Assembly: GCF_016734765.1 (NCBI RefSeq)
Contig: NZ_JAERQE010000002.1
Span: 1-64,000, forward strand
Source: Microvirga soli
GTDB taxonomy: Bacteria > Pseudomonadota > Alphaproteobacteria > Rhizobiales > Beijerinckiaceae
Direction of reading: 5' to 3'
DNA: 64,000 nt
Shown piece by piece: positions 2,071 through 24,503 of the stretch (position 1 is its first letter; each line of letters starts with the position of its first letter). The notes beneath the pieces were generated by a model. It ran no database searches, was not told the origin of the DNA, and saw only the letters and a list, made by a program, of their open reading frames with translations. A program made the translations under genes and the position numbers.

Positions 2071-4053
2071 TCACTCAGGAATCGCCGCCGCCTTGGCCAT
2101 CAGCTTCTTGTAATAGATCGACAGGGGCGGAGAGAGCGTCTGGCACTGTTGGACGAGAGCCAACGCTTCGGCCCGCTTGCCGGCCCCGATGGTGTCGAGA
2201 AGGGTGGGATGCAGCTCCGTCAGTTGCGCAAGCGCCGGATCCTTCTGGCGCTGCTCGACCGGCGCCACGATGGTGAAGATCGCCGATTTCTCGCTGCGCC
2301 CTTTCACGGCGATTCGGTCGAGTTCGATCAGCACGAAATGCTCCTGCAGGGCCTTTGCCGTGGCAGGACCCAGGACGATCGAGACGCCGTATTCCTTCGA
2401 CAGGCTTTCCAAACGTGAGGCGAGGTTCACCGTATCGCCCAGCACCGAATAATCGTAGCGCCAGCGCGAGCCCACATTGCCCACCACGCAGTCGCCGGTG
2501 TTGATGCCGACGCCGATGGCAAAACGAGGAGCGTCCTCACCCTGCTCCTGCTGCAGCTCCGCGTTGAGGATGTTGACTGCCTCCAGCATGCGCAGGGCGG
2601 CGCGCGCGGCCTTCAACGGATGGTCCGGGCTGGGCAAGGGCGCGTTCCAGAACGCCATCACGCAATCGCCGATATACTTGTCGATGGTGCCGCCTTCCGC
2701 CAGCACCGCCTCCGAGAGCGGATCGAGCAGGCGGTTGATGAGAGTGGTCAGCCGCTCCGGCTCGTCCTTCAGCTTCTCCGACAAGGTGGTGAAGCCGCGC
2801 ACGTCACAGAACAGGATGGACAGGTTGCGGCGCTCGCCGCCGAGCTTCAGGGCGCTGGGATCGCGGGCGAGCTGTGCCACGAGATCCGGCGACAGGTAGC
2901 GCGAGAAAGCCTCCGACACGGTGCGGCGCAGATGCCGCTCGCGGGCATAGTCGAGACCGAACCGCGCTCCGAACACAGCCAGCGCTGCGGCCGCGGGTAG
3001 AGCGGGTGGCGCCCAAACCCGTCCGAAGCGTAAGAGAGCCCAAGCCCCGACGATGAAGAAGGCGAGCACGAGAGCTGCGGATAGACCCGTGCGCCACGTC
3101 ATGCCTTTTGTGGAGAATGCAGCGGCCAGGAAGGCCGCGGCAATGACGAGGATCACCATCAGCGGGCGCGAAACCGGGAGCACGTAAAGGCCGTGGCGGA
3201 GATTGTCGAGAATGTTGGCCTGCACCTCGACGCCGGGCGTGAGCGTGCCCTCGGTCAGAGTATAGGGCGTGGGAAAAGCGTCGGGGGTGCCGATATCGGC
3301 GGAGGTCGCCTGCTTGAGGCTCAATCCCACGAAAACGATCCGGTCCTTGAAAAAGCCGGGCGGCAGGAAATTTGCTGGATCCAGCGCCTGGTAATAGGAC
3401 ACGCGAGGATAGGTGTAGGCCGGCCCGATGTATTGGATCAGCGCGCCTTCGGGAGCAGCCGGTTTCGGTTCCCCCATCAGGCGAAGGGCCTCGCCGGCAA
3501 AACTGTCCCGCAACTCGGGCATGCGGCGCAGGTAAGCATCGCCGTCGAGGTGGACCGAGGCGACGCCCGACGCTGCGCCCGTATCCAGGAACGGATCGAG
3601 CGGGCTGACGCGGGTGACCTGAACGCCCTGGTTCAGCATCGTGGTGACATCGTCCGCCGCCAGCACCACATCCGGGCCGAGCGCCGTGGCGAGGGCCGTA
3701 TCGGCTTCCTCCGTGGTGGGGTCGGCAAAGATGATGTCGATGGCGATCACCTTCGCACCGGCCGCGCGCAAGCTCTCGATCAGTTTCGCGTGGATGTCAC
3801 GGGGCCAGGGCCAGCGCTGGGCGATCTCGCCGATGGAGGGCTCGTCAATGGCGACGATCACGGCACCGGGCTCAACAGGCAGCGGAGGGGCGATCACCGA
3901 GAGCAGATCGTAGAGCCGCGCCTCGATGAGGCGCATGGGCTGGAAGAAGAACACGAAGGGGATCAGCAGCGCTGCGATGATCCCGGCCATGGCGAAGTGG
4001 CGCCAGAGAGGCTCTCCGCCGCCATGGTCGCGTGTCGTCTCGGGACCCTTCAC
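2071..4053 (-). CDS. CHASE2-domain class III adenylate cyclase
   Basis: The 660-residue membrane cyclase should make cAMP from ATP under control of a periplasmic CHASE2 domain. Domains in order: membrane helix (about 21-38), CHASE2 (about 42-290, with AIDEPSIGEI and VIAIDIIFADP), three membrane helices (about 296-365) and a catalytic domain (about 405-600). Metal-binding aspartates are D417 (LFCDVRGFT) and D463 (KYIGDCVMAFWNAP); transition-state residues are N543 and R547 (GDTVNLASR). Base recognition uses K459 and S536, close to the Lys/Thr pattern of class IIIb enzymes, so ATP is the likely substrate. The start is GTG at 4053, one base after the stop of the FecR/TPR gene, which suggests translational coupling and a shared function. 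Confidence 0.92.
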   Translation of the reverse strand: MKGPETTRDHGGGEPLWRHFAMAGIIAALLIPFVFFFQPMRLIEARLYDLLSVIAPPLPVEPGAVIVAIDEPSIGEIAQRWPWPRDIHAKLIESLRAAGAKVIAIDIIFADPTTEEADTALATALGPDVVLAADDVTTMLNQGVQVTRVSPLDPFLDTGAASGVASVHLDGDAYLRRMPELRDSFAGEALRLMGEPKPAAPEGALIQYIGPAYTYPRVSYYQALDPANFLPPGFFKDRIVFVGLSLKQATSADIGTPDAFPTPYTLTEGTLTPGVEVQANILDNLRHGLYVLPVSRPLMVILVIAAAFLAAAFSTKGMTWRTGLSAALVLAFFIVGAWALLRFGRVWAPPALPAAAALAVFGARFGLDYARERHLRRTVSEAFSRYLSPDLVAQLARDPSALKLGGERRNLSILFCDVRGFTTLSEKLKDEPERLTTLINRLLDPLSEAVLAEGGTIDKYIGDCVMAFWNAPLPSPDHPLKAARAALRMLEAVNILNAELQQEQGEDAPRFAIGVGINTGDCVVGNVGSRWRYDYSVLGDTVNLASRLESLSKEYGVSIVLGPATAKALQEHFVLIELDRIAVKGRSEKSAIFTIVAPVEQRQKDPALAQLTELHPTLLDTIGAGKRAEALALVQQCQTLSPPLSIYYKKLMAKAAAIPE

Positions 4054-4054
4054 C

Positions 4055-7000
4055 TCAGAACCTGGCCTTCACGCTCGCTTCGATGGTGCGCCCCGGCCCG
4101 CGAATGTCGGGGGCCAGCTCGAAATCCTCGTCGAGCATGTTGAGCACGCTGAGGCCGAAGAGCAGGCGGCGATCCGGGGTCTCCCAGGTCAGCGCCGCAT
4201 CGGCCGTCCAGTAATCGTCGATGTCACGCCCCTGCAGGTTGCCCGTGATATCTCCCAGGTAGGTTCCCGCGAGAGTGAACTTGAGGCGGCTCGGATGGAC
4301 GAAGGTGACGCCCGCCCGCACGAACTTGCCGGCAATGAAAGGCACGTCGGCCCCCGGTGCCTCCTCGGAGCGAATTTCCGACGAGATCGTCCCGATGGTG
4401 CCGAACACGCCGATGCCGTGGGTCAGCCAGAGGTTGGCCGTTGCAGCAAGCCGATCGACACGCGCCTTGCCGATGCCGATGTCGTCGAAGCTGTAGGCAA
4501 TCGGGAGATTCAGGTTCTCCGCATCCTGGCGCTGATACTCGACTGCAGTGAAGACGTAAGGTGACCATTCCGCGTCCCAGCGGAAGGCCAGGGTTTTGGT
4601 TTCCCCGCCGAGCTGGATGGGCAGGGCATTCGGCACCAGGCCGACCGTAGTCACGGGCGCCAGGGTGAACGGGATGGGAGATCCGGTGTCCTGGCGGTAG
4701 GCCGCACGCAGCCATTGCCCCTCGAAGGGCGAGATGCCGATTCCGACGCGCGGCGAAATCGCATCATCGACAGGCTGGTTCGCGACCTTGACCGTGCTGT
4801 GCTCGATGCCCGCCTGAGCCTCGAGCCAGTCGAAGGGGCGCCAGAGGACGTCAGCGTAGAGGCGCGTCGTGCGGAAGCTCGCGCTCGACTGATCATCGAT
4901 GTCTTCGAAGTCGAACGTGTCCGTGGCGATGTTGTAGAGGAATGCGCGGCCCGTGTTGCGGGTGATCGTCCGGCCTTTTTGTGCCTCGAAGCCGTAATGC
5001 AGGGTCAGGTCCCCGAAGCCGATCATGTGGGACAGGGCGGCCGAAGCGCCCTCAACCCGCGTCCGCGTCCAAGTGTTGCCTCCAACAACGAAGCCGGGGT
5101 TGAGTTCGGCATTCGCGGCGTTCGTGTAGCTGCGGTCGATGGCGTTGATGCCGAAGACGGCACCGGTCAGGACGTTGCGGTCGCTGAAGCTATGGCTCCA
5201 GCCCGCTCCACCGAGCACGGCGGCATTGTTCTGCGTTCCCTCGACAAAATTGGTCGGAGTGTTGATCGTGGCGATGGCCGGATCGTTGTTCGCGCCGGCG
5301 CCGAACACGAGGAAGCGGTCGGTGGCCGAAGGCGCCATGCCGACGAAGAAGGAGCCGCTATCGGCATTCTCCTGGTCGATGAGATCGCGCCCGTTGGTCT
5401 TGAGGCGGTTTGCCGTGATGTTGAATGAGGTCGGAACCGGCTCGTTCGAGAAGCCCTGCACCGTTGCGTCCGCGCCCCAGCCGAAGCGTCCATTGTGGTG
5501 CAGGAGCGAGCCGCCGACCTCCGCGTCGACAAAAGGTCGGCGATAGAAGTCGGGCCGCCCGATGCGCCCGGAGACAGCCAGCGGATCGAAGAAGAGGCCC
5601 TGGATGGTGAGGTTGAGCGCCGAGAGATCGACGCCCACGCCGCTCTCGATATTCGAAACGTCCGGCCGGCCCGTCACGAGGCCGGGGCGCTCCACCGCCG
5701 ATTGGTCGAAATAGCTCGACGCCTCGAAAGGATCGAACACCCGGTCGCCGTAGAAGCGGGACCACTCGTTGAGGTTCAGGAAGCGATAGGCTTGGGCCGG
5801 GTAGGAACCGCCATCCTTGTTGATGGCAATGCCGGCGAAATCGCCGCCGCGCTGACGGTAGCGGCGCAGGGTCTCACGAGCCGCGAGTACGGCCTGATCC
5901 GCCTGATACTGATCGATGGCGATGCCCGTGCGCACGCTCGAGACGGCCGGGTCGTTCGGATCGAGCCGGTCCGCGTTGTCGAGAGCCTGGATGGCCAGGT
6001 CGTCGTCGCCGTTCTGGTAATAGGAGGCAGCCGCCAGCAGCAGGCCCTGCGACAGGCCAGGATTGGCGGCAGAGCCCGCGAGAATGGCCTCCAGGCCTTT
6101 AACTGGGTCGCCTTTCTGCATCAGGTAGCGGCCACGGGCGAGATAGGCCACGTGGTAGCCGGGATCGAGAGCAAGCGCCTTGTCGATCATCGCGCCCGCT
6201 TCCTCGACCCGGTACTGGTCCAGCAGGAAGATCGCCAGGTTGGCGTAGGCGACCGGGCTGAACGGGTCTTCCGCAATGGCGCGGCGCATGGCTTCTTCAG
6301 CGGCAAGCGGACGGTCCCGGTCGGATTCGAAAAGCCCGAGCGTGTTCCAGAGGGCGGAATTGCCGGGCGCGATCTCGACGGCCCGGCGCAGGGCCTCGAC
6401 CGCCGCGTTGACCTCGCCGTCGATGTCGCCGCGAATGTTGCTGTCGGCGGCGATCACCTCGGGATGGTCCGGGTCCAGAGCCTTGGCTCTCGCAATGGAG
6501 GCCCGCATCTCCTCGCGTCGGTTCAGCGCATAGGCCACCGTTGCGGCCGTCATGGCAATCCGCGCATCGTTCGGGAAGCGCTTTTCCGCTGCCTTCAAGA
6601 CCTCGGCCGCCGCATTCAGATCCTGCTTGAAGGCGACCACATAGGCATGCGCCAGGGCCGCGAACGGATCGGTGCCCGGAGCCTTGGGCTCCGTATAGAT
6701 CCGGTTCGGATCGGCCAGCGACTGGGTGATGTAGCGCCCGTAGGACGCGAGCACGCGCCGCTTGGGGTCAAGATTCCGCTCAGCTTTCGCGAACAGGGAA
6801 GCGGCCTCGGCCCAGCGATGCTGCGATCCAAGAAGGGCCGCTTCCACCATGTCCGCGCGGGCGCGCTGTGCGGCGCTCATGCGGCCGCTGCGCGCCTCGG
6901 CGAGTGCTTGCGCGGCAACAGTCCTGCCGTCATAGGACGGAGCGATCTCGGCGAGGGTCAGCCAATCCTCGACGCTGCGGGCCTGCGGCGGAATGGCTTT

Positions 7001-7696
7001 GATCCTGTCGCGTTCCGCTCTCAAGGTCGGCCCCGTCAGGGGCGTGGTCGAGAGGGACGAGAACGTCTCGCGCAGGCTCATGTAGAAGAGCATCTGCTCG
7101 CGGTCGTTCGAGTTCGTGATCACGAATTTTGTCGGAGCCTGCCCGATCGAAGCGACGGCGCCCTCGCCCTGGCGGACCGTCACGGAGCCCTGGGCGTTGG
7201 TGAGCTCGACCACGCCCTCGAGCACGATGAGAGAGGTTCGGCCTCCTTCGACCGTCAGAGACCAATCCGTGCCGCGGATCGCCGCAACGGCCGCGGGTGT
7301 CTTGACGTCGACGCCGGAGCCGCCGCGGGCTGCGCGAGCCCAGATGTTGCCGGCCTGTAGGCTGAGCTGGGTGTTGCCGGCCTGGCCGCCGGCCACATCA
7401 TTGACTGTCAGGGTCGAGTTGCGGCCGACACGGATCTGAGTCTGATCGGAGAACAGGATCGCGAGATTGCCGATCTCGTTGGTGCGCAAGGTGTCCCCGC
7501 CGACGACGCTCTGCTGGATTTGGGCCGCGCGCCACAGGTCCTCGCGCACGAAGCGCATTTCCTCGCCGCCCTTGGCAGCCACGATGGCGCCTGCTGCGGG
7601 AGCCTGGCGCGGCAAGGGGGACTGGGCCTGTGCATTGGCAAGGCAAAGCGCCAGGGCGCTGGCCGCAGCCAAAAACCTGAAGGGTCGAGGAGACAT
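4055..7696 (-). CDS. FecR-domain, TPR and outer-membrane beta-barrel fusion protein
   Basis: A 1213-residue exported protein. A signal peptide (about 1-25, ending AQA) precedes a FecR-type domain (about 55-190, with LRTNEIGNLAILFSDQTQIR and AIRGTDWSLTVEGG). A run of TPR-like helical repeats follows (about 240-620, e.g. PGNSALWNTLGLFESDRDR and DPGYHVAYLARGRYLMQKG). The last ~530 residues alternate in beta-strand fashion like a TonB-dependent-receptor barrel and end in Phe (EASVKARF), the usual mark of BAM-inserted proteins. No plug domain is visible. The unusual fusion would span outer membrane and periplasm; its partner gene codes for the CHASE2 cyclase. A sensory role is inferred from this context; transport or surface assembly are alternatives. 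Confidence 0.82.
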   Translation of the reverse strand: MSPRPFRFLAAASALALCLANAQAQSPLPRQAPAAGAIVAAKGGEEMRFVREDLWRAAQIQQSVVGGDTLRTNEIGNLAILFSDQTQIRVGRNSTLTVNDVAGGQAGNTQLSLQAGNIWARAARGGSGVDVKTPAAVAAIRGTDWSLTVEGGRTSLIVLEGVVELTNAQGSVTVRQGEGAVASIGQAPTKFVITNSNDREQMLFYMSLRETFSSLSTTPLTGPTLRAERDRIKAIPPQARSVEDWLTLAEIAPSYDGRTVAAQALAEARSGRMSAAQRARADMVEAALLGSQHRWAEAASLFAKAERNLDPKRRVLASYGRYITQSLADPNRIYTEPKAPGTDPFAALAHAYVVAFKQDLNAAAEVLKAAEKRFPNDARIAMTAATVAYALNRREEMRASIARAKALDPDHPEVIAADSNIRGDIDGEVNAAVEALRRAVEIAPGNSALWNTLGLFESDRDRPLAAEEAMRRAIAEDPFSPVAYANLAIFLLDQYRVEEAGAMIDKALALDPGYHVAYLARGRYLMQKGDPVKGLEAILAGSAANPGLSQGLLLAAASYYQNGDDDLAIQALDNADRLDPNDPAVSSVRTGIAIDQYQADQAVLAARETLRRYRQRGGDFAGIAINKDGGSYPAQAYRFLNLNEWSRFYGDRVFDPFEASSYFDQSAVERPGLVTGRPDVSNIESGVGVDLSALNLTIQGLFFDPLAVSGRIGRPDFYRRPFVDAEVGGSLLHHNGRFGWGADATVQGFSNEPVPTSFNITANRLKTNGRDLIDQENADSGSFFVGMAPSATDRFLVFGAGANNDPAIATINTPTNFVEGTQNNAAVLGGAGWSHSFSDRNVLTGAVFGINAIDRSYTNAANAELNPGFVVGGNTWTRTRVEGASAALSHMIGFGDLTLHYGFEAQKGRTITRNTGRAFLYNIATDTFDFEDIDDQSSASFRTTRLYADVLWRPFDWLEAQAGIEHSTVKVANQPVDDAISPRVGIGISPFEGQWLRAAYRQDTGSPIPFTLAPVTTVGLVPNALPIQLGGETKTLAFRWDAEWSPYVFTAVEYQRQDAENLNLPIAYSFDDIGIGKARVDRLAATANLWLTHGIGVFGTIGTISSEIRSEEAPGADVPFIAGKFVRAGVTFVHPSRLKFTLAGTYLGDITGNLQGRDIDDYWTADAALTWETPDRRLLFGLSVLNMLDEDFELAPDIRGPGRTIEASVKARF

Positions 7697-7869: not shown

Positions 7870-8259
7870 TCAGGCGGTTTTGCCGCGCGCCATGATGAGC
7901 TTCTGCTTCAGGTCGTGCTGAGCAAAGGGCTTCTGCAGGACAGGCCTGTCGCGGAAGGTGTCGCGGATCCCGGCGCTGCCGTAACCCGTGGAGAACACGA
8001 ACGGAATCGAGCGCTGTGCCAAAGCTTCCGCCACCGGATAGATCGGCTCCCCGGCCACATTCACGTCGAGGATGGCCAGATCGACCTGCTCGCGGGATAC
8101 GGCCTCAAGGGCCGCAGACAGCCGCGCCGCCGGACCGATCACCTCGCAGCCGAAATCGAGCAGCATGTCTTCCAGAAGCAGGGAAATCGCGGCCTCGTCC
8201 TCGACGACAAGGATTCGCAGGCCATTGAGATCGCCGTCGCTCATTACGCTATCGGTCAC
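7870..8259 (-). CDS. Stand-alone response-regulator receiver domain protein
   Basis: The product is a single receiver domain with no output domain: acidic pocket VEDE, phospho-acceptor Asp in DLAILDVNVAGE, switch Thr in FVFSTGYGS and the invariant Lys in VLQKPF. Such proteins act as phosphate shuttles or sinks for histidine kinases, and this sequence type is often paired with HWE kinases such as those at 21-24 kb. The start is uncertain: GTG at 8259 (129 residues) is used here, ATG at 8244 gives 124, and ATG at 8316 gives 148 with a non-conserved-looking leader. It lies divergent from the binding-protein gene at 8454. Confidence 0.82.
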   Translation of the reverse strand: MTDSVMSDGDLNGLRILVVEDEAAISLLLEDMLLDFGCEVIGPAARLSAALEAVSREQVDLAILDVNVAGEPIYPVAEALAQRSIPFVFSTGYGSAGIRDTFRDRPVLQKPFAQHDLKQKLIMARGKTA

Positions 8260-8453
8260 GGTTTCGCTTTCTTTCAGGCAAGGCGCTGGTAGATTGTTTC
8301 CCAGAACACGGAACACATGCCCTGGATATTCTGGACTTCAAGCCTTGAGACTCAGACGCTTCTATCACTTTTGCGTCTCCATGCAAAAGAACCTGACACT
8401 GCCCTGATCCATGATATCATTATAGAACAGGATCATAGGGCCAGAGAGGCCCC

Positions 8454-18035: not shown

Positions 18036-18598
18036 CGATTCTGGCGCGACTGAAAACCGAAACCCGTGCGGCGCACGACCGCATCGAGGCGGCGATGGAT
18101 CTCGACCGCCGGATCGCCACGCGCGATGGCTACCGCGATCTGCTGATCCGCTTTTACGGGTTCCACAAGGCTTGGGAGTCGGAGGCAGCGGGCCGAGCCC
18201 CCGACCAGGGCTTCTTCGAGCGCCGGCGCAAGACGCAGCTTCTGGTTCAGGATCTCGAAGCCCTAGGATTGAAGTCGGATGACATCATCCGTTTGCCACA
18301 ATGCCGGCCTTTGATGCCGCTCCCGGGCCCGGAGGCGGTGCTGGGGAGCATGTATGTGGTCGAGGGCTCCACCCTGGGCGGCGCCATCATCGCCCGCGAG
18401 GTGAAGAACCGGCTCGGGCTCGACGCGGAGACAGGCTGTGCCTATTTCCGCAGCTATGGCCGTGATATTGCGGCCATGTGGAAGTCGTTCGGCGTTGTGC
18501 TTCTCGAGGCTTCCTCGCCGGAGGCCGACGGTCAAATCGTCGAGTCCGCACAGAAGACCTTCGACGTGATGCATGACTGGCTGTGCGAGACCCCATGA
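18032..18598 (+). CDS. bphO: Biliverdin-producing heme oxygenase
   Basis: The 188-residue cytosolic enzyme opens heme to biliverdin IX-alpha, CO and iron. The proximal heme ligand is probably H15 (ETRAAHDRIE), and the distal helix carries the family signature GSMYVVEGSTLGG (105-117). It overlaps the bacteriophytochrome start (ATGA at 18595), the classic bphO-bphP pairing in which the enzyme supplies the chromophore. The unusual point is the matching overlap on its upstream side with an osmoprotectant permease. Confidence 0.93.
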   Translation: MTILARLKTETRAAHDRIEAAMDLDRRIATRDGYRDLLIRFYGFHKAWESEAAGRAPDQGFFERRRKTQLLVQDLEALGLKSDDIIRLPQCRPLMPLPGPEAVLGSMYVVEGSTLGGAIIAREVKNRLGLDAETGCAYFRSYGRDIAAMWKSFGVVLLEASSPEADGQIVESAQKTFDVMHDWLCETP

Positions 18599-20844
18599 CC
18601 CTGCAAACCCCGCAAGACATCGACCTGACCGCCTGCGACCGGGAGCCGATCCACATTCCGGGCAGCATCCAGCCGCATGGGATTCTGCTGGCGGTCCGGC
18701 TCTCCGACCGGACGCTCGCCTATGCCAGCGCCAACATCGCGGAGATCTTCGGGCTCGATCCGTCAGACACCCTGGGTCGATCCTTCGCCGAGGTTCTGCC
18801 GGTTCTGAGCCGGGATTTCGAGGCGGCGCTGGCAGATCCGCCACCGGCCGGGACCACGCAGTATCTGCGCACGATCGAGGTTTCGACGGCACAGGGCCGG
18901 CGGACCTACGAGGCCGCGATCTCCCGTTCGGGCGAATGTGCCGTCCTGGAGCTCGAGGAAACGCCCTCGGAGGCCGTCGCCAGCCTCGACTCGCTCTATC
19001 CCACCCTGCGCCGCTTCGTGGAGCAATTGCAGGGGGCCTCCAGCATCGATGCCCTGTGTGGCCTCGCGGCGCAGGACATCCGCCGCATGACCGGGTTCGA
19101 CCGGGTGCTGATCTATCGCTTCGACGAGCAATGGAACGGCACCGTCATTGCCGAGGATCGCAACGAGGTCCTGCCGTCCTACCTCGACCTGCGCTTTCCC
19201 GCCTCCGACATTCCGGCCCAGGCGCGGGAGCTTTATCGACGCAATCGCCTGCGCATCATCTCGGATGCCAACTACATCCCGGTCCCGATCCAGTCGCGGG
19301 ATCCCGCACCGCTGGACCTGAGCGACTCGGTTTTGCGCAGCGTTTCGCCGGTGCATCTCGAATACATGCGCAACATGGGGACGCTCGCCTCCATGTCGAT
19401 CTCGATCCTGCGCGACGGCAGGCTGTGGGGGCTGATCTCGTGCCACAGCAAGGAGCCGAAGCGGGTCTCGCTCCAGGTGCGCAACGCCTGCGATTTCCTC
19501 ACGCAGATCTTCTCCCTGCAGCTCGAGGCGCGCGAGAACACGTCGCTGGCCGAAAACCGGGTGCGTCTCGGCACCGTGCAGACGCGGCTCCTCGCCCACA
19601 TGGCGGCGGAAGAACATTTCATCGCAGGCCTCGTGAACCACCCGGACGACCTCATGCTCCTGGCAGACGCGCAAGGAGCGGCGGTGCTGACGCAGGATCA
19701 TTGCTGGTGCCTCGGCCAGACCCCCGCCGAGAAGGACGTCAAGGCTCTGTTCGCCTGGCTCTCGCGGAACAATCAGGAGGACGTCTTCGCAACCGACAGC
19801 CTGTCTCAGGTCTACCCGGCGGCGAAGGCTTATACGGACCGGGCCAGCGGCCTTCTGGCGATCTCGATCTCGAAGGCGCAGTCGAGCTATGTGCTCTGGT
19901 TCCGCCCCGAGGTGGTCCAGACCGTCAAATGGGGCGGCAACCCGCAGAAGCCCGTGCAGGAAGAGGCTGGCACGGCCCGGCTCCATCCCCGCCGCTCCTT
20001 CGAGATCTGGAAGGAGACGGTGCAGGAGCGGTCGCTTCCCTGGGACCGGAGCGAGATCGAGGCGGTCAGGGAGCTGCGCCACGCCATCGTGGGCATCGTG
20101 CTGCGCCGGGCCGAGGAGCTGGCGTCCATCTCCGAGGAGCTGCGCCGCTCCAACAAGGAGCTGGAGGCCTTCTCCTATTCGGTCTCCCACGACCTGCGCG
20201 CCCCGTTCCGGCACATCGTCGGCTATTCCGAGCTTCTGAAGAAGCAGGAAGGCAGCGATCTGTCGGAGAAGGGCAGGCGCTACGTCGACACGATCATCGA
20301 CTCCGCCTACACGGCCGGAACCCTCGTGGACAACCTGCTGCGCTTCTCGCAGATGGGCCGCACGGCTCTCAAGCCGCGTCGGATCGACATGCGTCGCCTG
20401 GTCGACGAGATCCGGCAGCAGCTCACCGTGCATGCGGGCGGCCGTCGGGTCGACTGGGTCATCGGCGACCTGCCCGAGGTGACGGCCGATCCGGTGCTGA
20501 TCCGGCTGGTGTTCGAGAATCTTCTCGACAATGCCCTAAAATACACCCGTCCCCGGGAGAAGGCGCGCATCGAGATCGGCTCCACCCGCAAGGCTGGGGA
20601 GACGATCTTTTTCGTGCGCGACAACGGCGTCGGATTCGATATGAAGTACATCGACAAGCTCTTCGGCGTCTTCCAGCGGCTGCACCGGATGGAAGATTTC
20701 GAGGGAACCGGCATCGGGCTGGCCAATGTGCGCCGCATCGTTGAACGGCATGGAGGCCGGGCCTGGGCCGAAGGCGCGCTCGACCGGGGCGCGACCGTCT
20801 CCATTGCCCTGCCGGATGAAACAAAGACTGAAGGAGCGGCGTGA
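18595..20844 (+). CDS. bphP: Bacteriophytochrome histidine kinase
   Basis: The 749-residue red/far-red photoreceptor kinase has PAS (about 15-130), GAF (145-310), PHY (325-500) and HisKA/HATPase domains (515-745). C14, in ACDREPIHIPGSIQPHG, is the expected biliverdin thioether site. GAF pocket residues include D205 (PASDIP), H254 and H284; the PHY tongue carries WGGNP and PRRSFEIW. The phosphorylated His is H532 (FSYSVSHDLRAPFRH), and the ATP site has LLDNALKYT, VRDNGVGFD and GTGIGL. ATG 18595 is chosen because it overlaps the heme oxygenase stop. All key photochemical and kinase residues are present. Confidence 0.96.
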   Translation: MTLQTPQDIDLTACDREPIHIPGSIQPHGILLAVRLSDRTLAYASANIAEIFGLDPSDTLGRSFAEVLPVLSRDFEAALADPPPAGTTQYLRTIEVSTAQGRRTYEAAISRSGECAVLELEETPSEAVASLDSLYPTLRRFVEQLQGASSIDALCGLAAQDIRRMTGFDRVLIYRFDEQWNGTVIAEDRNEVLPSYLDLRFPASDIPAQARELYRRNRLRIISDANYIPVPIQSRDPAPLDLSDSVLRSVSPVHLEYMRNMGTLASMSISILRDGRLWGLISCHSKEPKRVSLQVRNACDFLTQIFSLQLEARENTSLAENRVRLGTVQTRLLAHMAAEEHFIAGLVNHPDDLMLLADAQGAAVLTQDHCWCLGQTPAEKDVKALFAWLSRNNQEDVFATDSLSQVYPAAKAYTDRASGLLAISISKAQSSYVLWFRPEVVQTVKWGGNPQKPVQEEAGTARLHPRRSFEIWKETVQERSLPWDRSEIEAVRELRHAIVGIVLRRAEELASISEELRRSNKELEAFSYSVSHDLRAPFRHIVGYSELLKKQEGSDLSEKGRRYVDTIIDSAYTAGTLVDNLLRFSQMGRTALKPRRIDMRRLVDEIRQQLTVHAGGRRVDWVIGDLPEVTADPVLIRLVFENLLDNALKYTRPREKARIEIGSTRKAGETIFFVRDNGVGFDMKYIDKLFGVFQRLHRMEDFEGTGIGLANVRRIVERHGGRAWAEGALDRGATVSIALPDETKTEGAA

Positions 20845-22355: not shown

Positions 22356-24503
22356 ATGGTGCAGGAACCCACGGCCGGAACGAACACTGCGCAGGCGGCC
22401 ACGGGTCTTCCCAGGAAAGCCGGGATATCGCTGCGCCAGGTTCTGTGGGGGCTGGTGCTCGCCATCTCGCTGCCGATCATCTTGGTGGCGGCCGGAGGCT
22501 TCTACTCCGGCTACCGAGCCGAGCAGCAGGCCGTCGATCAGCGCATGCAGGAGACCGCCCGGGCCTTGAGCCTGCTGCTGGATCGGGAAATCGACAAGTC
22601 GGTGCTCGCCATGCGAGTCCTGTCTCGATCACCGACCCTTGCCGGCGGCGACTACGAGAGCTTCTACAAAGGGGTCAAGGATGCCGGTTTCACGGCCCCT
22701 TTCTGGATCGCCCTCTTCGAGCCGAACGGTCGCACCATCTTCAACACCCGCGTGCCCTACGGCGTTCGCCTGCCGGACAGCAACCGGATGGATGCTCTTC
22801 GGCAGGTTCAGGAAACGCGCGAGCCCCATATCTCGAATCTCTATACGGGTTCCCTGACGGGACAGCGCCTCATCACCATCGACGTTCCGGTCGTCATCAA
22901 TGAGACGGTGGCCTATATTCTGACACTCGCCATCACGCCCGAGGCCTTCCAGAACATCATTCGCGATCAGAGAATCGTCGATGGCTGGAACGCCGCCGTG
23001 CTCGACCGCGGCAAGCGGATCGTGGCCCGATCCCGCGCGCCGGAGCGGTTCGTCGGTCAGCCCGCCAGCGCCAATGTTCAGGAGGCCCTTGCTGCATCCT
23101 CCGAGGGCATCCTCCAGAGCGTCACGCTCGACGGCATTGCGGTTCGCACCTATTTCAGCCAGTCACCGGCCTATGGCTGGTCCTTCGTCATCAGCATCCC
23201 GACTTCGGAGCTGGCGCAGTCGATCCAGCGCTCGCTCTTCTGGCTCATGATCCTGGCCGCAGTCGTTCTCGGCGGTCTCATTCTGGCGGCGCTTCTGGCT
23301 CGGGCCATTGCGAGACCTGTGGACCAACTCGTCGCGGCCGCGCAAGCGCTTGGCCGCCGGGAGGAAGTCTCCGGACCGGACACAACACAGGTTCTGGAAT
23401 TCGACACGATCAGGACGGCGCTGGCGGAAGCGTCGGCGGATATCCGCACGCACGAACAGGACCGGGAGGACGTTCTCGCCCAGATGGCGGAGAGCGAGGC
23501 CCGCCTGCGGCTCGCGCTCAATGCCGGGCATTTCGGCTCCTGGGAGTTCACGCCGGAAACGGGCACCTTCATCACCTCGGCAACCTGCCGGGCCAATTTC
23601 GGCCGCAGTCGCGACGAGCCGTTCACATACGCGGATCTGGTCTTGTCCATTCATCCCGACGACCGCGCCATGCAGGCCGAGGCCGTCGCGCAGGCCATTG
23701 CGGCCAACACGGATCTTCATGTGGAGTATCGCGCGATCTGGCCCGATGAAAGCGAGCATTGGATTCGCGTCAGCGGGCGGACGCGCATCGGGGCGAACGG
23801 CCAGATGTCGATGGTGGGCGTCTCGCAGGAGATCACCGAGCGCAAGCTCGCCGACGAGCGCCAGGCGCTTCTGCTGCGCGAACTGAACCATCGCGTGAAG
23901 AACACGCTGGCGACGGTGCAATCCGTGGCCTCCCTGACCCGCCGTTCGACCCAGAACACCGATCCTGAGGCCTGGAATGCCTTCATGGATCGCCTGCACG
24001 GTCTCGCCAAGACGCACGATCTTCTGACGACCACCCATTGGCAGGGCGCGCTTCTGGAGGATGTGCTCAAGAACGAGCTCGATCCCTACCAGGACGTCAT
24101 GCGCCAGCGCATCCGCCTGAAGGGACCGCGCATCAATCTCCAGCCGAGCGCCGTGCTCGCCTTAGGTCTCGCCATTCACGAGATGGCCACGAACGCCGTC
24201 AAGTACGGCAGCCTCTCGGTGCCGGACGGCAGGGTTCACGTCATGTGGGCACTCACCACCGGAAGCGCGCCGCCCTCCCTGCTCGTCGAATGGGTCGAAA
24301 GCGGTGGCCCTCCCGTCAAGAAGCCGGAGCGTCAGGGCTTCGGCATGAAGCTCATCCAACGCGGTCTGGCGCAGCAGCTCGGGGGCGAGATCAAGCTCGA
24401 TTTCGCCCCGGCGGGCATCCGCTGCGTGATCACCTTCCCGATCGAGACCATGGTCACCGATTCCGACGAAGCCGACGAGACCCGGCAGCGCTACGCGTCC
24501 TGA
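22356..24503 (+). CDS. Membrane sensor histidine kinase, HWE family
   Basis: A 715-residue inner-membrane kinase: helix 1 (about 31-50), a periplasmic Cache-like domain (60-290), helix 2 (295-317), HAMP (318-370), PAS (385-500, with HPDDRAMQAEAV and MVGVSQEITERK) and an HWE kinase domain. The acceptor is H512 in LRELNHRVKNTLATVQS, and the ATP lobe has LGLAIHEMATNAVKYGSLS, where the H and E of the HWE class are visible; the final Trp-x-Glu is in VEWVESGGP. It follows the receiver-kinase by 3 bases. The extracellular signal is unknown. Confidence 0.93.
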   Translation: MVQEPTAGTNTAQAATGLPRKAGISLRQVLWGLVLAISLPIILVAAGGFYSGYRAEQQAVDQRMQETARALSLLLDREIDKSVLAMRVLSRSPTLAGGDYESFYKGVKDAGFTAPFWIALFEPNGRTIFNTRVPYGVRLPDSNRMDALRQVQETREPHISNLYTGSLTGQRLITIDVPVVINETVAYILTLAITPEAFQNIIRDQRIVDGWNAAVLDRGKRIVARSRAPERFVGQPASANVQEALAASSEGILQSVTLDGIAVRTYFSQSPAYGWSFVISIPTSELAQSIQRSLFWLMILAAVVLGGLILAALLARAIARPVDQLVAAAQALGRREEVSGPDTTQVLEFDTIRTALAEASADIRTHEQDREDVLAQMAESEARLRLALNAGHFGSWEFTPETGTFITSATCRANFGRSRDEPFTYADLVLSIHPDDRAMQAEAVAQAIAANTDLHVEYRAIWPDESEHWIRVSGRTRIGANGQMSMVGVSQEITERKLADERQALLLRELNHRVKNTLATVQSVASLTRRSTQNTDPEAWNAFMDRLHGLAKTHDLLTTTHWQGALLEDVLKNELDPYQDVMRQRIRLKGPRINLQPSAVLALGLAIHEMATNAVKYGSLSVPDGRVHVMWALTTGSAPPSLLVEWVESGGPPVKKPERQGFGMKLIQRGLAQQLGGEIKLDFAPAGIRCVITFPIETMVTDSDEADETRQRYAS

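Follow-up and report, generated by a model that had tools for sequence, protein, structure and literature searches.

A probable NsrA-CyaK receptor pair in Microvirga soli, with signs that its sensor part may be exchanged between strains

Could two adjacent genes carry a signal from the bacterial surface to cyclic AMP (cAMP) with no sigma factor on the way? The question is raised by a stretch of 64,000 nucleotides from Microvirga soli (here called the window; NCBI RefSeq assembly GCF_016734765.1, contig NZ_JAERQE010000002.1, positions 1 to 64,000), where an earlier reading of the bare sequence, the original prediction, had paired a FecR-TPR-barrel protein with a CHASE2 adenylate cyclase. The receptor open reading frame (ORF), at 4055-7696 on the minus strand, encodes 1213 amino acids (aa), and the cyclase ORF, at 2071-4053 on the same strand, encodes 660 aa. 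The two genes are, as predicted, one base apart: the receptor stop codon TGA ends at 4055, a single base follows at 4054 and the cyclase starts with GTG at 4053. We consider this pair very probably to be the form that the NsrA-CyaK receptor of Sinorhizobium meliloti takes in Microvirga. Its features are as follows.

4055..7696, minus strand: nsrA homologue, 1213 aa, with signal peptide, FecR, TPR and outer-membrane barrel (ORF list, Pfam, homology)
7625..7696, minus strand: likely signal peptide, residues 1-24 (by eye from the sequence)
7205..7495, minus strand: FecR domain (PF04773), residues 68-164 (Pfam)
7247..7318, minus strand: putative sensor-exchange breakpoint, residues 127-150 (informative sites in locus L027; identity drop over about residues 165-200)
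5849..7102, minus strand: helical TPR region, about residues 199-616 (Pfam TPR inside; helices of the weak full-length model)
4058..5533, minus strand: predicted TonB-receptor-like outer-membrane barrel without plug, about residues 722-1213 (models, fold and sequence searches)
4054..4054, minus strand: one-base gap between receptor stop and cyclase start (sequence)
2071..4053, minus strand: cyaK homologue, 660 aa, CHASE2 class III adenylate cyclase (ORF, Pfam, homology, alignment)
3127..3972, minus strand: CHASE2 domain, residues 28-309, periplasmic by family (Pfam)
2287..2829, minus strand: class III cyclase catalytic domain, residues 409-589 (Pfam, alignment)

Both proteins are homologous to the S. 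meliloti pair over their full length and share its domain order, and in both organisms the receptor gene lies directly upstream of the CHASE2 cyclase gene. In tblastn searches the window receptor was 42% identical over 98% of its length to S. meliloti pSymB, and a plasmid collection returned 86 records (Sinorhizobium 67, Ensifer 9), 84 of them matched over ≥80% of the query. On pSymB of S. meliloti Rm41 (locus L049), a 1216-aa FecR-TPR-barrel ORF, its FecR and TPR recognised by Pfam, comes right before the ORF of a 649-aa CHASE2 cyclase; blastp identity to the window proteins is 41.5% for the receptor and 49.3% for the cyclase. That layout agrees with the position of nsrA immediately upstream of cyaK, as reportedly described by Garnerone et al. 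in J Bacteriol in 2018. The window pair differs from the S. meliloti pair in sequence (42% and 49% identity) and in its host, Microvirga, which carries the pair genus-wide.

In S. meliloti, CyaK is SMb20776 (PMC5498481), and NsrA is described as an outer-membrane receptor for a signal termed signal 1, whose activity also needs the inner-membrane CyaK, as measured with a cAMP-dependent reporter (PMC7529298). The same source gives ribosomal protein uL2 as the candidate signal 1 and proposes that it is bound by acidic outer loops of the NsrA barrel (residues 600-1200), and cAMP synthesis is reported to rise in NsrA-CyaK signalling (PMC13001267). Because the homologous pair works in this way, a surface-to-cAMP relay, as originally predicted, is the best reading of the window pair. 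Both the relay and the architecture were already known in kind from S. meliloti, so the earlier view of the barrel fusion as unusual fails: FecR-TPR-barrel is the NsrA architecture itself, by Pfam on the S. meliloti protein and by published description (PMC7529298).

The predicted anatomy of the receptor held up: a single chain carries FecR and TPR (by Pfam), a C-terminal barrel (by a weak model and fold matches) and a likely signal peptide (by eye). Pfam places FecR at residues 68-164 (E 9.5e-16) and the TPR families mainly inside residues 433-585, and reports no Plug domain in the 1213-aa protein at E up to 1; as a control for this negative, the Plug model does match another protein of the same genome. 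AlphaFold modelling of the C-terminal 613 residues from 16 sequences gave a weak model (predicted local distance difference test, pLDDT, 54.0; predicted template modelling score, pTM, 0.50) with 21 strands from about residue 722 and a low-confidence helix over the final 12 residues. Fifty PDB matches were listed for this model by each of two programs: Foldseek included FoxA (E 4.5e-12), and VIA-align included PirA (Z 17.2, root-mean-square deviation 3.3, 378 residues aligned) and FecA (Z 16.0, deviation 3.5, 432 aligned). All the matches listed we take to be TonB-dependent receptors, and we assign the predicted fold to the 22-strand barrel of that receptor type on the basis of the 21 strands of this low-confidence model. 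By sequence, no Pfam family matched the window's own barrel, the Pfam TonB barrel model matched one of 16 barrel members (6.9e-11), and the barrel profile found no match among PDB chains at E up to 5. Of the 15 NsrA proteins inspected, 14 have Phe as their final residue. The full-length AlphaFold model was poor (pLDDT 52.5, pTM 0.37) and was used for secondary structure only; its 50 listed PDB matches look like TPR or TPR-like helical-repeat proteins.

In the 660-aa protein, Pfam finds CHASE2 at residues 28-309 (E 1.9e-42) and the Guanylate_cyc domain at residues 409-589 (E 4.7e-24). Residues D417, K459, D463, D540, N543 and R547 are invariant across 15 aligned CyaK sequences; they presumably comprise the two metal-binding Asp, a Lys/Asp pair favouring ATP and the transition-state Asn and Arg, in keeping with the prediction of a cyclase with all catalytic residues.

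The pairing is conserved, which, with the low-confidence barrel model, agrees with the original prediction on two points that could have refuted it. All 15 named relatives of the receptor are Microvirga proteins, and in a survey of 61 genomes (our own, G000, and 60 relatives) a strong NsrA match was found in 36 of 37 genomes of the genus (the exception being G006) and in two of 24 from other families. A CHASE2 gene follows NsrA directly in 38 of 42 copies, one in each of 38 genomes; the small piece seen in G016, which covers just the C-terminal residues 1158-1213, is not counted. The four exceptions comprise two copies in G027 (contigs C59 and C58) and two in G024 (one on C210, the other the first of a tandem pair). 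Profile searches found carriers in 14 of 297 genomes sampled from the order, two of 337 from the class and seven of 349 from the phylum; each count includes our own genome, the samples overlap, at most two candidates were scored per genome and E limits were 1e-60, 1e-60 and 1e-40, respectively. All 15 carriers outside the genus have a cyclase beside NsrA, and the distribution there is patchy. Since the named carriers include soil, aquifer and other isolates, nodulation cannot be the general role. The system is known from a legume symbiont, where it takes part in the control of root infection; as it occurs throughout a soil genus and here and there in other families, its first role is unlikely to have been nodulation.

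Several copies depart from the standard layout. At L058 (4181-13716; G024, C177) two tandem NsrA genes precede a single CyaK. Copies lacking an adjacent cyclase include L054, L055 and L057, on G027 C59, G027 C58 and G024 C210; the neighbours scanned, those of L054 and L055, include a phage-type integrase next to L054 and a Mutator-family transposase next to L055. The FecR domains of L011 and L054 have SGT at a place where the other copies shown have RGT. The NsrA match is in pieces in G014 (C36), G018 (C103), G020 (C112), G026 (C124) and G453 (C14): in G014, G018 and G453 the frame stays open and the barrel part carries an insertion, and in G020 and G026 the pieces lie in different frames, possibly through frame breaks. 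For split matches in G014, G018, G020 and G026 only the cyclase-side piece was typed, and for G025 one of two contigs.

Association between FecR and CHASE2 extends beyond NsrA. All three CHASE2 cyclases found in the M. soli genome have a FecR-domain protein directly upstream: NsrA, a 201-aa protein (C109) and a 904-aa protein (C55). Across the 19 of the 61 genomes with a CHASE2 match (our own, the genus member without NsrA and 17 from other families), FecR lies within 4 kb of 21 of 33 CHASE2 domains, against 0.15 expected by even placement; three of these 21 neighbours are NsrA itself, and one (in G057) falls just below the family cut-off (23.5 of 24 bits). FecR proteins are also reported to adjoin CHASE2 cyclases in Campylobacterota (PMC9239204) and CHASE2 kinases in Burkholderia (PMC5192318), and in S. 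meliloti the FecR-domain protein SMc02177 is numbered next to CyaD1, SMc02176 (PMC5498481). The Campylobacterota cluster, as described, surrounds its CHASE2 adenylate cyclase with the same set of domains, but its FecR outer-membrane protein and TPR protein are separate and a phosphodiesterase is included (PMC9239204). The Burkholderia operon likewise encodes a secreted FecR-domain protein beside a CHASE2 receptor, but the output is a histidine kinase and FecR is carried on a LysM peptidoglycan-binding protein rather than a barrel (PMC5192318). The common denominator is FecR plus CHASE2, and the remaining parts vary. On the strength of this linkage FecR is a candidate partner for CHASE2, a sensory domain for which a 2016 paper described the factors recognised as unknown (PMC5192318).

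Two of these loci differ visibly from the window pair. At L052 (7207-9729, minus strand; C109) the 201-aa FecR protein is encoded six bases upstream of the second CHASE2 cyclase, which by eye has ASFMGD in place of the DKYIGD of CyaK, so its substrate or activity may differ. At L053 (6533-11551, minus strand; C55), upstream of the third cyclase, the 904-aa protein joins FecR to immunoglobulin (Ig)/cadherin-like domains.

From these parts a mechanism can be proposed. The barrel would sit in the outer membrane with its external loops meeting the ligand, and the TPR arm would reach across the periplasm so that FecR, at the N-terminus, meets CHASE2 of the inner-membrane protein CyaK. FecR would touch CHASE2 directly, and ligand binding, as S. 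meliloti genetics suggest, might alter that contact and switch on the cytoplasmic cyclase. The resulting cAMP could act on a CRP-type regulator such as Clr, a step shown in S. meliloti only.

The histories of the two halves of the receptor bear on which part couples and which part senses. In several Microvirga strains, FecR and CyaK follow the species marker PriA, and the TPR-barrel part (from about residue 127-200) is of other lineages. The window was compared domain by domain with 39 other NsrA copies, a subset of those known. In eight of them (L027, L030-L033, L055-L057) FecR is 89-95% identical to the window, the TPR core 51-62% and barrel parts 30-61%, with CHASE2 78-82% identical where a cyclase follows. 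For L013-L026 the corresponding values are 78-87% (FecR), 70-84% (TPR core) and 61-75% (CHASE2), and L028 (G017) is intermediate (85, 59 and 68%). The clearest case is L027 (G010): by PriA, G010 is joint closest to the window at 97%, with G025, and G027 (L056) stands at 95%; both G010 and G027 are among the nearest rows to the window in the PriA tree. Window and L027 DNA agree at about 84% to residue ~165 and then at 52-73% from ~166 to the nsrA stop; in cyaK the figures are 82-91% at the start and 91-97% in the catalytic part, with a dip to 72-76% between them, in the later half of CHASE2. The gene upstream of nsrA is also similar (up to 93%), so this is the same locus.

Distances and trees agree with this picture. 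Over 23 genomes, correlation with PriA distance was 0.82 for FecR and 0.76 for CHASE2, against 0.03 for TPR and 0.18 for the barrel. Those 23 come from 30 genomes with a PriA locus, seven having been dropped: G014, G018, G020, G025 and G026, with NsrA in pieces, and G016 and G019, with full-length NsrA at a locus outside the set; the NsrA loci of G002, G005, G009, G021, G028 and G030, genomes beyond those 30, were likewise not part of the comparison. In the sensor tree G010 and G027 group with G017 (support 100), and G003, G008, G031, G035 and two orphan copies form their own long branch (100); in the CyaK tree G010 and G027 group with G012 (99). Approximately unbiased (AU) tests rejected the clades of either gene on the other gene's data (p of 7.0e-5, 2.0e-59 and 2.5e-138 on sensor data, 5.9e-4 and 3.1e-6 on CyaK data), for groups named after the trees had been seen, each taken from the other gene's tree. 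Informative sites in L027, counted as G012-like to G017-like, run 22:1 in FecR, 76:196 in TPR plus barrel and 118:10 in CyaK. These separate histories point to FecR as the coupler and to the TPR-barrel as an exchangeable sensor, and suggest that sensors may have been swapped over a fixed FecR-CHASE2 part.

An alternative to exchange, which leaves the receptor reading untouched, is that the mosaic reflects faster divergence of the TPR-barrel under diversifying selection. Barrel residues 781-960 do rank with the most variable stretches in the majority of comparisons, as surface loops would, and in the second sensor group the contrast is weaker, the FecR sites of L030 (7:9, p 0.0075) and L031 (8:11, p 0.005) being, on those counts, not clearly of one side. 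However, L027 changes sharply at one point, the best breakpoint at residues 127-150 raising the log-likelihood by 32.0, where 500 shuffles gave at most 7.2, and its sensor resembles that of L028 over that of its species neighbour by 196 sites to 76. The drop affects the TPR core as well (to 51-62%), and the orphan L011 is a reverse mosaic, with FecR 63% and TPR-barrel 71-89% identical to the window. We therefore regard divergence by selection as unlikely to account for the pattern.

Other explanations concern the pair as a whole. The genes might merely be co-transcribed, with NsrA having some other function at the outer membrane and CyaK answering to another periplasmic partner; the NsrA copies without an adjacent cyclase, the non-significant partial FecR-CHASE2 correlation given below and the service of S. 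meliloti NsrA to CyaD1/D2 (PMC7529298), encoded elsewhere by their locus tags (PMC5498481), would all fit. S. meliloti genetics, however, tie NsrA to CyaK (PMC7529298). A cyclase also stands beside NsrA in 36 of the 37 genomes of the genus Microvirga, as it does in every carrier beyond, and FecR-CHASE2 linkage is far above chance, which leaves bare co-transcription with a small probability, roughly that of a one-in-ten guess. PgaA and BcsC, too, are built as TPR plus barrel, so the receptor might be a polysaccharide or protein exporter with the cyclase as its regulator, and the TPR part does match the PgaA model weakly, at 24.3 bits; but the NCBIfam cut-off is 366.65, the match covers residues 427-521 only, the 21-strand barrel model matches TonB receptors and no glycan synthesis gene was found among the neighbouring window proteins scanned, so that an exporter seems highly improbable. 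FecA-FecR-FecI signalling likewise combines a FecR domain and a TonB receptor, there with a sigma factor as output, and the window protein has a FecR domain and a predicted TonB-receptor-like barrel. It differs in having no plug match, in carrying FecR within the barrel protein rather than in a separate inner-membrane anti-sigma protein, and in having a cyclase as its neighbour; no sigma factor gene was found among the neighbouring window proteins scanned, a scan that did not cover every ORF. A Fec-type system is thus the least credible of these explanations, with hardly any weight, and a role of FecR apart from sigma factors, in line with the bypass originally predicted, is supported both by that scan and by the FecR genes at 21 of 33 CHASE2 sites.

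A bolder reading, that of a modular receptor, we put forward tentatively and rate somewhat short of even. NsrA would trade its whole TPR-barrel among strains while the FecR-CHASE2 coupler stays fixed; those copies that lack a cyclase and lie near mobile DNA might hold a stock of alternative sensors, and more than one receptor may signal to a given cyclase. FecR-CHASE2 could then be a general periplasmic socket for sensing parts (barrel, Ig/cadherin, LysM or none) and for outputs (cyclase or kinase), and natural sensor exchanges mark where such a receptor can be cut. Among the papers listed by the literature searches (10 of 59 in one of them), in which most subscription journals were outside coverage, no title or abstract dealt with sensor exchange in NsrA or with NsrA in Microvirga.

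Several observations weigh against these proposals. Twelve of the 33 CHASE2 domains lack a FecR neighbour at that 4-kb distance, four of the 42 NsrA copies have no directly following cyclase, and the structure models of the receptor are weak. The S. meliloti record is unannotated at L049, the identity of its nsrA and cyaK being deduced from architecture, replicon and order. Over the same 23 genomes, FecR and CHASE2 distances correlate at 0.68, falling to a partial correlation of 0.15 (permutation p 0.07) once PriA distance is removed; as the partial value is so low, co-inheritance is what is shown, not contact. Mirror-tree evidence for direct contact was accordingly set aside, and we claim no co-evolution beyond shared descent. 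The ligand known from Medicago gains no support as what Microvirga senses, and the barrel part is less acidic in the 11 Microvirga copies inspected (net charge -7 to -25) than in S. meliloti (-34). In the published account smc02177 was not required for perceiving the plant signal tested (PMC5498481). This result, together with the indecisive FecR counts in the second sensor group, which also favour diversifying selection, weakens the case for a modular receptor.

Further signalling genes lie in the window. Just upstream of nsrA, at 7870-8316 on the minus strand, is a lone response-regulator receiver domain, and the DNA around this gene is similar in several related loci. On the plus strand, 18583-20844 encodes a bacteriophytochrome-type histidine kinase (PHY, GAF) and 22356-24503 a Cache/PAS HWE histidine kinase.

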